From an uncultured Nitrospira sp. (GTDB lineage: Bacteria > Nitrospirota > Nitrospiria > Nitrospirales > Nitrospiraceae): DNA of 64,000 nucleotides. Below are positions 2,824 through 16,417 of the stretch, in pieces. Within the stretch, counting starts at the first letter, position 1. Every line of letters begins with the position of its first letter. Under the pieces are notes generated by a model. That model made no database searches. It had not been told where the DNA came from and was given only the letters and a program-made list of their open reading frames with translations. A program made the position numbers and the translations under genes. The DNA lies in NCBI GenBank assembly GCA_902500825.1, contig CABVRX010000007.1:1-64000 (forward strand), read 5' to 3'.

Positions 2824-3552
2824 TTACATATCCTTCGGCCACAAGGAACTCAGCTCCGGGTACTTCGCGCGATAGTCGGTGTGGCTGGCGCGGATGACTT
2901 TCAGCGCCTCCTCCCGTCCATACACGCTGGTAATTTCCACCTTGTGATGCGTTGTGCCGGGCGCACTCTTATAGGTGAGGAAATAATGTCGGAGGCGGTC
3001 CAGAAGTGCCGTCGGGCATTGCGACACATCCGTGAAGTTGCCGTATACCGCATCGTCCCGCATCACAGCGATGATCTTATCGTCCGCTTCACCGCCGTCA
3101 GCCAGGCTCAACCCACCGATCGGCAGCGCGGTCAAGAGAATGTCGCTGTGCGGAATGCTCTTTTCCGATAACACGCAGATATCGAGCGGATCGCCGTCCC
3201 CGACCATCCCCTTGCGGCGGGCCCGCTTCGCAAAAATACTCGCTACCTGCTCCCCCGAGTAGGTCTGCGGAATGAGTCCATAATAGACCGGGCAGAAATT
3301 GGAAAACCGCTGCGGCCGGTCCACTTTCAGAAAGCCGCTGTTCTTGTCCACTTCGTACTTCACAGTGTCGGTCGGAACGATTTCGATGTAGGCCGTCACG
3401 ATATCCGGGGCTTCATCCCCGATGGACACGCCGTGCCATGGATGTGCCTTGAACATCAGTCCGAGCAACCGCTGAAAAGGATCGCTGCCTGCGCGTATCT
3501 CGGCCGTCTTGTCTGTGTCTTCTCCCTTCCCTCTCCCCTTTTTCTCTTTCAT
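2824..3552 (-). CDS. ppa: Inorganic pyrophosphatase, family I
   Basis: Soluble family I pyrophosphatase (242 residues), which hydrolyses PPi to two phosphates with Mg2+. Active-site residues are easy to read: IEI and KYEVDK (residues 56-70), the DRPQRFSNFCPVYYG strand with the Arg and Tyr residues, and the metal triad in GDGDPLD (D119, D121, D124). It is longer than the ~175-residue E. coli enzyme because of a charged N-terminal extension (about 50 residues) and a C-terminal tail with a THHKVEI segment. The start ATG at 3552 follows GGAGGGGAT, a good ribosome site. It is the intact member of the duplicated pair; the copy at 9954-10682 is a pseudogene. Confidence 0.93.
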   Translation of the reverse strand: MKEKKGRGKGEDTDKTAEIRAGSDPFQRLLGLMFKAHPWHGVSIGDEAPDIVTAYIEIVPTDTVKYEVDKNSGFLKVDRPQRFSNFCPVYYGLIPQTYSGEQVASIFAKRARRKGMVGDGDPLDICVLSEKSIPHSDILLTALPIGGLSLADGGEADDKIIAVMRDDAVYGNFTDVSQCPTALLDRLRHYFLTYKSAPGTTHHKVEITSVYGREEALKVIRASHTDYRAKYPELSSLWPKDM

Positions 3553-9953: not shown

Positions 9954-10682
9954 CTATAGACTCTTCGGCCATAAGGAACTCAGCTCAGGATACTTCACGC
10001 GATAGTCGGCGTGACTCGCTCGGATGACTTTCAGCGCCTCTTCCCTGCCATACACGCTCGTGATTTCCACCTTGTGATGCGTTGTGCCAGGTGCGCTCTT
10101 GTAGGTGAGGAAATACTGCCGGAGGTGGTCCAGAAGCGCCGTTGGGCATTGCGAAATGTCTAAAAAGTTTCCGTACACCGCATCATCCCGCATCACGGCG
10201 ACGATTTTGTCGTCGGCCTCGCCGCCGTCGGCCAGGCTCAACCCACCGATCGGCAGCGCCGTCAGGAGGATATCGCTGTGCGGAATGCTCTTTTCCGACA
10301 ACACACAGATATCGAGCGGACCGCCGTCCCCGACCATACCCTAGCGGCGGGCTCGCTTGGCAAAGATGCTGGCCACCTGCTCTCCGGAATAGGTCTGCGG
10401 AATGAGTCCATAATAGACCGGGCAGAAATTGGAAAACCGCTGTGGCCGGTCCACTTTCAGAAAGCCGCTGTTCTTGTCCACTTCGTATTTGACCGTGTCG
10501 GTCGGGACGATCTCGATGTAGGCCGTGACAACGCCCGGGGCTTCCTCTCCGATGGACACGCCGTGCCACGGATGGGCCTTGAACATCAGTCCAAGCAGAC
10601 GTTGAAAGGGATCGCTTCCCGCACGCATGTCGGACGTCTCGTCTGTGCCCTCTCGTCGTCCCTTCCGCTTCTTCTCTGTCGT
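9954..10682 (-). pseudogene. Decayed inorganic pyrophosphatase gene (second copy)
   Basis: Very similar to the gene at 2824-3552 but with three independent lesions. The aligned start codon is ACG (10680-10682). Codon 114 is TAG (10341-10343) where the intact copy has AAG Lys. Downstream of the stop, the second Asp of the GDGDPLD metal motif is Gly (GDGGPLD). The two open pieces, 10341-10628 and 9954-10337, are therefore fragments of one dead gene, not two genes. Confidence 0.88.
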
Positions 10683-13836: not shown

Positions 13837-14149
13837 GAAGTCCGTCTTGTGGGTGAGTAGGCTTCATGCCATAACAGGATCCGAGCATACCGTGAGCATG
13901 GGGGAATGTCACCTGTCTCCAGATACAACCATCACAGACCCCGGACTGTCGAATACAACAGTTTTGAGTCTCAGCGGAGATGAAGCCGGAGAAAGACTCC
14001 CGGATCATTTTGTTCATAACGGAGATGAGCAATTTGATCGGTCGTTCACCGGACACTATGAAGCCTTGATTCCACCGTCACAAAAGTACTTAGATAGACC
14101 CGGCTGGTCAACGCCTGCAAGACACACGTCCTGTGCCGAAGGAGGAACA

Positions 14150-16417
14150 ATGCTGATTGACACAACCTTACTCGGTGAGACGGAACAGCGATTTGCAGAA
14201 CGACGGACCGCGCGTGAGGAAGGTATCCGGCTCATTCATGCAGGGAAGCTTTTGCAGGCAGACTCGCCGAAGCGGGTACGGGCGCGATTGAACCGCTTGG
14301 GAATTGATCGACGAGTGGCAGAGCAGGTGGTCGCCGCACAAGCCGGGCTCGGGAACGAAGCGAAACGAGGACGCGTGGGCAACGCCAAGCGGACACAGGC
14401 CCCCGACAGCACGGAACATAGGAAGGTGTACGCGGTGACGGCCGAGACGCTGGGGATCGAGCCAGGGGCCATGCACCCTGCAGAGCTGAAGATCAATGAA
14501 TTGCTCTTGGAGCGGGTCATAGGGCGGAACGATTTGCTGAGTGTTTCCTACATGGATCGCGGCCTCGCCGCAAGCCGCACCGTCGGGTGCGTACGACTCT
14601 TCGACAACGGACAATTCGTGGGCTCCGGTACGGGGTTCATGGTGTCGCCACGATTATTGCTGACGAACAATCACGTCATCGAAGATGCGGCAATAGGGCG
14701 TCAGGCGCGCGTCGTCTTCAATTTTCAGGACGATCCCGAAGGCAACGCCTTGCCGCCCACCACATTTTCACTCGACCCCGACACATTCTTCCTTACGAAT
14801 CACCCGTTAGATTTCACGCTGATTGCTGTGAGTCCACTAGCGGCAGAGGGAATGATTGATCTCCAGCAGATCGGATGGTCTCGCCTGATCGAAGCCGAAG
14901 GCAAGGCTATTAATGGTGAATATGTCACGATTATCCAGCATCCCAACGGCCAACCCAAACAGATCGCCCTGCGCGAGAATCAGATTATCGACGTCCTGGA
15001 AAATTTTCTTCACTATCACACCGATACGGCGCCCGGGTCATCAGGGTCACCTCTGTTCAACGATCAATGGGAAGTGGTGGGGCTGCATCATTCCGGAGTT
15101 CCCAAGCGGAACGCACAGGGAAAGGTTCTCACGCACGACAACACCGTTTGGACGGCCGTTATGGGAGATGCGGCAATCCACTGGATTGCCAACGAGGGTG
15201 TACGGATCAGTCGAATTCTACAACACGTCAAAACCCGATCGTTCAGCGGAGAGGCCCGACGGTTGAAAGAGCAGCTTTTTGAGGAGAAGCTGCCCCTCCA
15301 TAATACGAGACCGGTATCAATGTCTGCCGCCGTGTCGGATCGTACCCCGGTAGGAGATCCATCGCAATCGTTCGCGGTCGAAGGACCGGCCACTTCTGAT
15401 GGAGAGGCGACCTGGACCATTCCTCTCCGGATCACAGTCCAGGTAGGTGAGTCGCGATTGAATCAGGGCTCAATTCGACCAGTGACGGCGGGCGCTGTGC
15501 AGCCTCGACCGAATCCACCGACCCCACAGGCTGTCGCGACGACACCAATGGATGCCGAGGTAATGGCTGCCATCGACGAAGCGCGCCGAGCAGGAACCAG
15601 GCAATACTATGACAAGTCGACAGATTTGAAGGCTCGGAAACAGTACTATGCAGGCATCTCCAGTTCTCTTTCCCCTGCCAAGCTCTTTGCCAAACTATCC
15701 AACCTCGTCACGCGCACGCACGCCAACAAGCCTCCGTACCGACCAGGCAAGGAAGTCTATCCCTGGATCGATCTCCGCTCCAATCTTACCCTGCGCAGCA
15801 TCTACTCAGGCAAAGAGTTCCAGCCCGAAGAGCTGATCCGGGAGGATTTTCGTATCGAGCAGGAGCGGGCGGGGCGGCTCCGCGAGTTTGCGTTTCAGGA
15901 ATCGACCTTGAGTACAACGCAGTTTCAAGAACGCATGGACCTCTTAGAAGCCTCTTTACCGTTCAATTGCGAGCACGTCGTTCCGCAATCTTGGTTCGGA
16001 AAAATGGAGCCGATGCGCGGCGACCTGCATCATCTCTTTGCCTGTGAATCGGGTTGCAATAGTTTCAGGGGCAATACCCCGTACTTCGATTTCCCCGACG
16101 TTGAAGAAGTCGTACGAAGTGAGTGCGGCAAACGGGAACAACACATGTTTGAACCTGGTGCAGGGAAAGGGACGGTCGCAAGGGCGACGCTGTATTTTCT
16201 CCTGCGCTACCCGGGGGAGATCAACCGAACGGCGAAAGAGTACACGCACGATCGTATCGCCACGCTCCTCAAATGGCATAAGGACTTCCCGGTGGATGAC
16301 TACGAGCGGCACCGCAACCAGGCGATCTTCGAGCGACAAGGCAACCGCAATCCGCTCATCGACCGCCCCAAGTGGGCGGCAAAGATCGATTTTCGGCTTG
16401 GCTTAGGTCCGGAATAA
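14150..16417 (+). CDS. Trypsin-like serine protease fused to endonuclease I
   Basis: 755 residues from the ATG at 14150, which has AGGAGG just upstream; the frame open from 13580 is longer but overlaps other genes. Residues ~150-345 are a V8/trypsin-like protease: GTGFMVSPRLLLTNNHVIED (H175), HPLDFTLIAV (D221), APGSSGSPLF (S298). After a Pro-rich linker (440-470), residues ~470-750 form an endonuclease I (EndA-type) domain: CEHVVPQSWF (E608, H609), GDLHHLFACESGCN (D625, H627, H628, N637), FRGN. The ~125-residue N-terminal part is helical and unassigned. No signal peptide is seen, so the nuclease, usually secreted, would be cytosolic. Protease activation of a nuclease is an inference. Confidence 0.85.
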   Translation: MLIDTTLLGETEQRFAERRTAREEGIRLIHAGKLLQADSPKRVRARLNRLGIDRRVAEQVVAAQAGLGNEAKRGRVGNAKRTQAPDSTEHRKVYAVTAETLGIEPGAMHPAELKINELLLERVIGRNDLLSVSYMDRGLAASRTVGCVRLFDNGQFVGSGTGFMVSPRLLLTNNHVIEDAAIGRQARVVFNFQDDPEGNALPPTTFSLDPDTFFLTNHPLDFTLIAVSPLAAEGMIDLQQIGWSRLIEAEGKAINGEYVTIIQHPNGQPKQIALRENQIIDVLENFLHYHTDTAPGSSGSPLFNDQWEVVGLHHSGVPKRNAQGKVLTHDNTVWTAVMGDAAIHWIANEGVRISRILQHVKTRSFSGEARRLKEQLFEEKLPLHNTRPVSMSAAVSDRTPVGDPSQSFAVEGPATSDGEATWTIPLRITVQVGESRLNQGSIRPVTAGAVQPRPNPPTPQAVATTPMDAEVMAAIDEARRAGTRQYYDKSTDLKARKQYYAGISSSLSPAKLFAKLSNLVTRTHANKPPYRPGKEVYPWIDLRSNLTLRSIYSGKEFQPEELIREDFRIEQERAGRLREFAFQESTLSTTQFQERMDLLEASLPFNCEHVVPQSWFGKMEPMRGDLHHLFACESGCNSFRGNTPYFDFPDVEEVVRSECGKREQHMFEPGAGKGTVARATLYFLLRYPGEINRTAKEYTHDRIATLLKWHKDFPVDDYERHRNQAIFERQGNRNPLIDRPKWAAKIDFRLGLGPE

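Follow-up and report, generated by a model that had tools for sequence, protein, structure and literature searches.

The 64,000 nucleotide stretch of Nitrospira DNA analysed here (the window) carries a gene whose product, P0001, joins a trypsin-like serine protease and an Endonuclease I in one leaderless chain (Table 1), and this fusion is an old, widespread family. The reading we favour, at even odds, is that it is a cytosolic, single-chain, self-contained, protease-gated suicide effector; the evidence is laid out below.

Table 1. Positions in the window of the P0001 gene and its parts
Feature	Position	Strand	Basis
Trypsin-like protease/Endonuclease I fusion gene P0001, 755 aa	14150..16417	+	ORF translation without stop, Pfam, genome scan
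Ribosome-binding site AGGAGGA, 3 nt 5' of the ATG	14140..14146	+	Read directly from the sequence
N-terminal helical region, residues ~1-75, conserved R14/R18/R22/R46/L47/R49	14150..14374	+	No Pfam match
Trypsin_2-type serine protease domain, residues ~121-379	14510..15286	+	Pfam, alignment, structure comparison
Triad codons H175; D221; S298	14672-14674; 14810-14812; 15041-15043	+	Pfam, alignment
Disordered Pro-rich linker, residues 380-466	15287..15547	+	pLDDT 35-48 over 385-464; poor conservation
Linker motif DGEATWTIPLRITVQVG, residues 417-433	15398..15448	+	Conserved; P425 in 73/75
Endonuclease I domain, residues 467-752, cytosolic subtype, C607/C632/C636/C659	15548..16405	+	
Helical insertion, residues 557-602, immediately preceding the catalytic motif; candidate gate	15818..15955	+	Model, comparison
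Nuclease catalytic motifs EHVVPQSWF (608-616) and DLHHLFACESGCN (625-637)	15971..16060	+	E608, H609, D625, H627, H628, N637 in 74/74

The fusion gene and its product

The reading frame of the fusion stays open further upstream of the ATG at 14150, but the start is well placed because a strong ribosome-binding site lies just before it. A chance ORF or wrong start was rejected on the basis of this site, the conservation of the protein, its 268 relatives and a layout that is kept across phyla. An initial annotation, made from the sequence alone, had described a complete protease triad and a complete EndA-type nuclease in one protein, and Pfam recognises both domains: Trypsin_2 (PF13365) at residues 160-312 (E 6.8e-23, 82.4 bits against a cut-off of 27.6) and Endonuclease_1 (PF04231) at residues 601-740 (E 8.6e-31, 107.9 bits against a cut-off of 25), with H175/D221/S298, EHVVPQSWF and DLHHLFACESGCN all located. 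P0001 thus belongs to PF13365 by its score and a complete catalytic triad (75/75 full-length proteins), and to PF04231 by a score above the gathering cut-off and catalytic residues E608, H609 and N637 (74/74).

Export is typical of the characterised Endonuclease I members and not of the fold. The statement that these nucleases are normally exported held for four of five ordinary comparators, which have a hydrophobic leader. P0001 itself lacks the export that is typical of characterised PF04231 members: a simple hydropathy scan found no signal peptide or transmembrane segment in it or in 74 full-length relatives. The annotated absence of a signal peptide is therefore upheld, the secreted homologues that would have spoken against a cytosolic role were looked for and none with a leader was found, and an exported protein was rejected.

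Predicted structure and conservation

An AlphaFold2 model of P0001 built from a 43-sequence alignment (mean pLDDT 75.6, pTM 0.48) has an N-terminal helical region followed by two folded domains, the protease (~121-379) and a well-predicted nuclease (467-752), separated by a disordered linker (~385-464, pLDDT 35-48). The Pro-rich linker of the initial annotation is accordingly both disordered in the model and poorly conserved. In structure comparisons the protease aligns most closely with human FAM111A (Z 17.3), then with V8 (Z 15.3), with HtrA1 and V8/Esp at Z ~15, and for residues 525-741 the match is to the Endonuclease I Vvn (1ouo, Z 14.6). The protease loops around the oxyanion hole (296-304) and at 123-130 are of low confidence, which could reflect a zymogen-like state or merely the thin alignment behind the model. 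The N-terminal region, for which structure prediction had been proposed, gave only a few helices (mean pLDDT 64) when modelled alone; a CARD-like N-terminus was considered and not adopted on this result, the fold being unclassified.

Both active sites had been described as intact, and their conservation across relatives agrees. H175, D221, G296 and S298 are invariant in all 75 full-length proteins aligned, and E608, H609, D625, H627, H628, C636, N637, R640 and C659 in all 74 that reach that far, so that the poor conservation of catalytic residues that would have undermined the annotation was looked for and not seen. The putative S1-pocket residues D292, T293 and H313 are conserved. T293 and H313 occupy V8-like positions and might indicate a Glu-type P1 preference; this is only a lead, because D292 is likewise invariant.

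The linker is poorly conserved outside the 17-residue motif (417-433), and no single shared cleavage site is obvious in it in the alignment of full-length relatives. The motif is also found in the Lipase_3 versions and several of the Endonuclease_NS versions described below, and it forms the C-terminal end of one hydrolase-trypsin protein from Qingshengfaniella, in which the hydrolase-like region precedes the protease; it therefore travels with the protease module and not with the nuclease. The pattern used did not find it in the hydrolase-like, GDSL or EEP versions, and that scan is uninformative for L114 and L115, in which the serine was mislocated.

A protease module with exchangeable C-terminal domains

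The N-terminal and protease module of P0001 is common to proteins that end in Endonuclease I, Endonuclease_NS (NucA), Exo_endo_phos, Lipase_3, GDSL or alpha/beta-hydrolase-like domains. The versions are as follows: Lipase_3 in Cyanobium/Synechococcus (L103 and L106 by Pfam, L105 by similarity); Endonuclease_NS (PF01223) in Rhizobiales and Paenibacillus (L024, L114 and L115 from Pfam, L123-L125 from their annotation and L127 because it resembles L024); a hydrolase of the GDSL type in Geminocystis (L117, E 1e-6 although under the Pfam cut-off); alpha/beta-hydrolase-like domains in Streptomyces (L058, L061, L085 and L116, from an HSLG-type motif and not Pfam); and Exo_endo_phos in other Nitrospirota (L006 and L007, read by eye from the sequence). 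Double versions also occur, with Exo_endo_phos plus Endonuclease_1 in L023 and Endonuclease_1 plus DUF1353 in L050. In a tree of the protease module the 10 groups require 10 label changes, and Lipase_3 proteins nest within an Endonuclease I clade with support 98/96; the placement of long branches (e.g. L023, L125) in this tree is unsure. In Streptomyces, three loci have an Endonuclease I version next to a hydrolase version, the two genes being divergently oriented. Such exchange of toxin-like hydrolases on one protease module suggests a protease-controlled effector, for which it would be expected.

Several individual loci are recorded here for their own sake. The fusions of L050, L052 and L059 have a C-terminal extension of ~200 aa, which in L050 contains the DUF1353 domain, and in L052 and L059 a gene for a 612-aa protein (animal-haem-peroxidase-like in L052) lies directly upstream of the fusion, with an S8 gene further upstream. 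On a Geminocystis plasmid (L117:1468-7431) genes for GH19, TPR, amidase and murein endopeptidase proteins come after the trypsin-GDSL fusion and share its strand, possibly as a multi-enzyme lysis cluster. A leaderless trypsin-NucA fusion on a Cupriavidus plasmid (L125:833-8672) has gspF on one side and gspG on the other, within a type II secretion cluster.

The nuclease subtype

Nucleases of the same subtype (~45% identical) are encoded on Bacilli plasmids as separate genes directly downstream of an S8 protease gene (3/3 examined), and S8 genes lie near 12 of the ~83 loci. The Bacilli and fusion nucleases share C632/C636/C659, mostly C607, the lack of a leader and an insert of variable length before EHVVPQS. 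Judged by these shared sequence features, the nuclease belongs to a cytosolic sub-branch of Endonuclease I marked by conserved cysteines and by a helical insertion that precedes the active site, and it is a reasonable inference that C607/C632/C636/C659 make up a structural metal site in the reducing cytosol.

Distribution

A scan of species-representative genomes found 268 relatives, of which 80 were kept; they fall in nine phyla (Nitrospirota, Cyanobacteriota, Actinomycetota, Myxococcota, Planctomycetota, Chloroflexota, Acidobacteriota, Bacteroidota and Pseudomonadota), and the close relatives are from Nitrospira. The domain order, which had been singled out for a homologue search, is kept across these phyla. 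Within the same phylum only two other full-length copies (64-65% identity) were present among 296 genomes, and broken or partial copies were found in the Nitrospirota genomes G265, G199 and G220. The remnant in G220 immediately precedes the same DUF6263-like gene that the window has, and the one in G199 comes just after a carbonic anhydrase gene, which is also upstream of the fusion in the window; these shared neighbours indicate that the gene has long occupied this site and has often decayed there. A phage-borne gene was rejected, since the scan of viral contigs found no relative of the fusion and the search of phage records gave only two remote matches, both to the nuclease half.

Genomic surroundings

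In the window the fusion is surrounded by genes for a carbonic anhydrase, a DUF6263-like protein, a rhodanese, an aldose epimerase and an AraC-type regulator, with no tRNA or defence gene beside it and no mobile-element gene recognised in the window. Among ten window genes the PADLOC matches were a methyltransferase-domain match (mad2) and an HNH gene ~12 kb off; a defence island around the fusion was considered and not seen in the window. The small HNH endonuclease gene (PF01844, 1927-2289, + strand) matches the Zorya ZorE models weakly, and the protease domain of P0001 has a weak PADLOC match to defence proteases (RT-Protease_XI, E 2e-7). A second inorganic pyrophosphatase-like gene in the window, at 9954-10628 (-), falls into two ORFs and appears to be a duplicate, broken by a frameshift, of the pyrophosphatase gene at 2824-3552 (-), which looks intact. 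A search of the fusion's own genome gave only one other trypsin-like match, a weak one.

Neighbouring genes of homologues had also been named for examination. By raw count S8 peptidase (4), Amidase_2 (3) and LysM (3) lead among 138 neighbours of relatives; no obligate partner recurs among them, nor does an NLR/STAND partner. No EAD1 domain or STAND NTPase was recognised near the fusion or in the 25 commonest families of the 138 neighbours, and neither LypA (CARD-trypsin-ATPase) nor LypB (NLR-like) is beside the fusion, whose neighbours in the window are unrelated to them. Two further loci contain other trypsin proteins. In Streptomyces sp. ISL-1 an EAD5-trypsin protein (L054:18367-19491) is encoded ~6 kb from an Endonuclease I fusion, and on a Bradyrhizobium plasmid (L128:164-7750) a 1788-aa trypsin-containing protein is encoded beside caspase-family and M12 metallopeptidase genes, which together are possibly a protease cascade.

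Possible functions of the fusion

The above observations show that two enzyme domains with intact active sites are joined in one chain without an export signal, but what might their union do? As a suicide effector P0001 could work as follows: the nuclease would be silent, or unable to reach its target, for as long as the protease module is attached; a trigger, most simply infection or lysis-linked damage, would be sensed by the N-terminal helical region or through oligomerisation of the protease and would switch the trypsin-like domain on; the protease would then cut its own chain or that of a neighbouring copy, at the disordered linker and perhaps also at the helical insertion by the nuclease active site. 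The freed Endonuclease I, a member of a family that degrades DNA without sequence preference, would destroy chromosomal and invader DNA, and the cell would be killed or arrested. The intact invariant active sites, the lack of an export signal and the disordered linker argue for this role, as do the service of one protease module to several toxin-like domains and the occurrence in Bacilli of this nuclease subtype together with a protease of an unrelated kind. Against it are the lack of a defence island, of an NLR/STAND partner and of viral-contig copies, the poorly conserved linker with no obvious shared cleavage site, and the finding that lysis by Caulobacter LypC, itself a trypsin-endonuclease fusion, needs the protease serine and not the nuclease catalytic residues (Banks et al. 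2026, PMC13236601). The interpretation in the initial annotation is partly supported, in the intact active sites, the missing export signal, the disordered linker and the recombined protease module; release of the nuclease by linker cleavage and an abortive-infection or competition function are proposals. The absence of a recurrent adjacent small gene as a possible immunity gene and of an export signal speaks against a competition toxin, and the setting of ordinary metabolic genes in the window, with no recurrent NLR-type partner in relatives, speaks against readily filing the gene under phage defence.

The LypC result points to a different role, one we consider unlikely though well worth keeping in mind, in which the protease drives programmed lysis (for defence or particle release) and the nuclease mainly destroys DNA during or after lysis or just stabilises the protein. 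LypC has the same order of trypsin domain, linker and nuclease, with an essential protease and a nuclease that is dispensable for lysis; an Amidase_2 gene lies just downstream of one Nitrospira relative (and in 3/138 neighbours overall), and GH19, amidase and murein endopeptidase genes stand beside the GDSL version in Geminocystis. However, the invariance of the nuclease catalytic residues across phyla implies that nuclease activity is under selection, and no lypA or lypB partner adjoins the P0001 gene. The missing signal peptide would also fit cargo injected into other cells by a contractile or other apparatus, or a toxin set free by lysis, that the protease processes inside the target; modular C-terminal toxin-like domains and a DUF4157 gene near one Streptomyces copy accord with such delivery, which we nevertheless hold to be improbable, as no small immunity-type gene recurs next to the fusions, several recombinations retain the protease and not a trafficking domain, and no injection-system genes were recognised nearby. 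Slightly less probable again is an enzyme of stress or starvation scavenging or self-digestion that is released on lysis and has no regulated role in death; S8, M36, esterase and peroxidase genes adjoin some loci, but the protein has no leader, and a nonspecific DNase in the cytosol would be risky without control. Human FAM111A, the closest fold to the protease, digests DNA-bound proteins, and by analogy the protease and nuclease might act on the same DNA-protein crosslink or nucleoprotein substrate. This we rate lowest, since lipases and other hydrolases replace the nuclease in close relatives and the gene occurs patchily, with decayed copies, in Nitrospira.

Beyond P0001 itself, the family as a whole may be a bacterium-wide, single-gene death platform, although we lean slightly against so broad a claim. 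It would consist of a conserved helical-sensor and trypsin module with interchangeable nucleases (Endonuclease I, NucA, EEP) or lipase-like hydrolases (Lipase_3, GDSL, alpha/beta-hydrolase), with many members sharing the linker motif and all activating themselves by proteolysis without an NLR or other sensor partner; the Streptomyces nuclease and hydrolase versions that are divergent neighbours would both fall within it. If the suicide effector and platform proposals are true, proteolytic activation in bacterial immunity extends from MBL-fold nucleases to a second class that is fused in cis, and one protease module serves as an exchangeable trigger of enzymes that attack DNA or membranes, comparable to the use of caspases in animals. 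The whole mechanism may sit in one 755-aa protein and would thus be testable in one expression construct.

Comparison with known systems

Effectors that pair a protease with a nuclease are already known as a general kind. Kaur et al. (2020, PMC7159879) proposed a proteolytic cascade that deploys NucA for NucA-trypsin proteins, and Tuck et al. (2025, PMC12799240) showed that a trypsin-like protease activates a pro-nuclease unrelated to Endonuclease I and suggested that further classes exist. In the literature searched, which left most subscription papers outside, we found no description of an Endonuclease I-trypsin fusion, and this version appears to be undescribed there, as do its spread across phyla, the interchangeable lipase/GDSL domains and the shared linker motif.

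The NucA-trypsin System 3 of Kaur et al. (PMC7159879) resembles the fusion in joining a trypsin-like peptidase to a nonspecific nuclease, in its associated S8 subtilisin proteases, in the proposed proteolytic release of the nuclease and in its occurrence in multicellular bacteria. It differs in that the nuclease of the fusion is Endonuclease I (PF04231) and not Endonuclease_NS (PF01223), which relatives with the same module do carry; the text of that paper makes no mention of Endonuclease I or EndA. The EAD1/STAND partner found in a non-obligatory subset of System 3 was not recognised near the P0001 gene, and System 3 as described is mostly alphaproteobacterial, whereas the Endonuclease I fusion is far wider.

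LypC (PMC13236601) likewise has an N-terminal trypsin-like domain, a flexible linker and a C-terminal endonuclease, with catalytic S296 where P0001 has S298, but its partners are LypA and LypB (CARD/NLR-like), neither of which lies beside the P0001 gene. Its nuclease was aligned with Dns, EndA, Spd and NucA (catalytic H471 and N505), and we liken it to P0001 by layout.

In the HamM/Avs1a/CanC pairs of Tuck et al. (PMC12799240) a protease and a nonspecific DNase also travel together, an insertion lies near the nuclease active site and more than one protease class serves a nuclease family; the DNase is protease-activated in those pairs, as is proposed for P0001. There, however, the nuclease is of the MBL fold and in a separate gene, and the protease is fused to HamA/Avs/LmuA. 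The Endonuclease I of P0001 is fused in cis to a protease with no HamA/Avs/LmuA domain and no core immune sensor. With the secreted Endonuclease I enzymes (Vvn, EndA, Dns) the fusion shares its nuclease fold and catalytic motif, and it is set apart from them by the lack of a leader, the cysteines C607/C632/C636/C659, the helical insertion and the covalent link to a protease.
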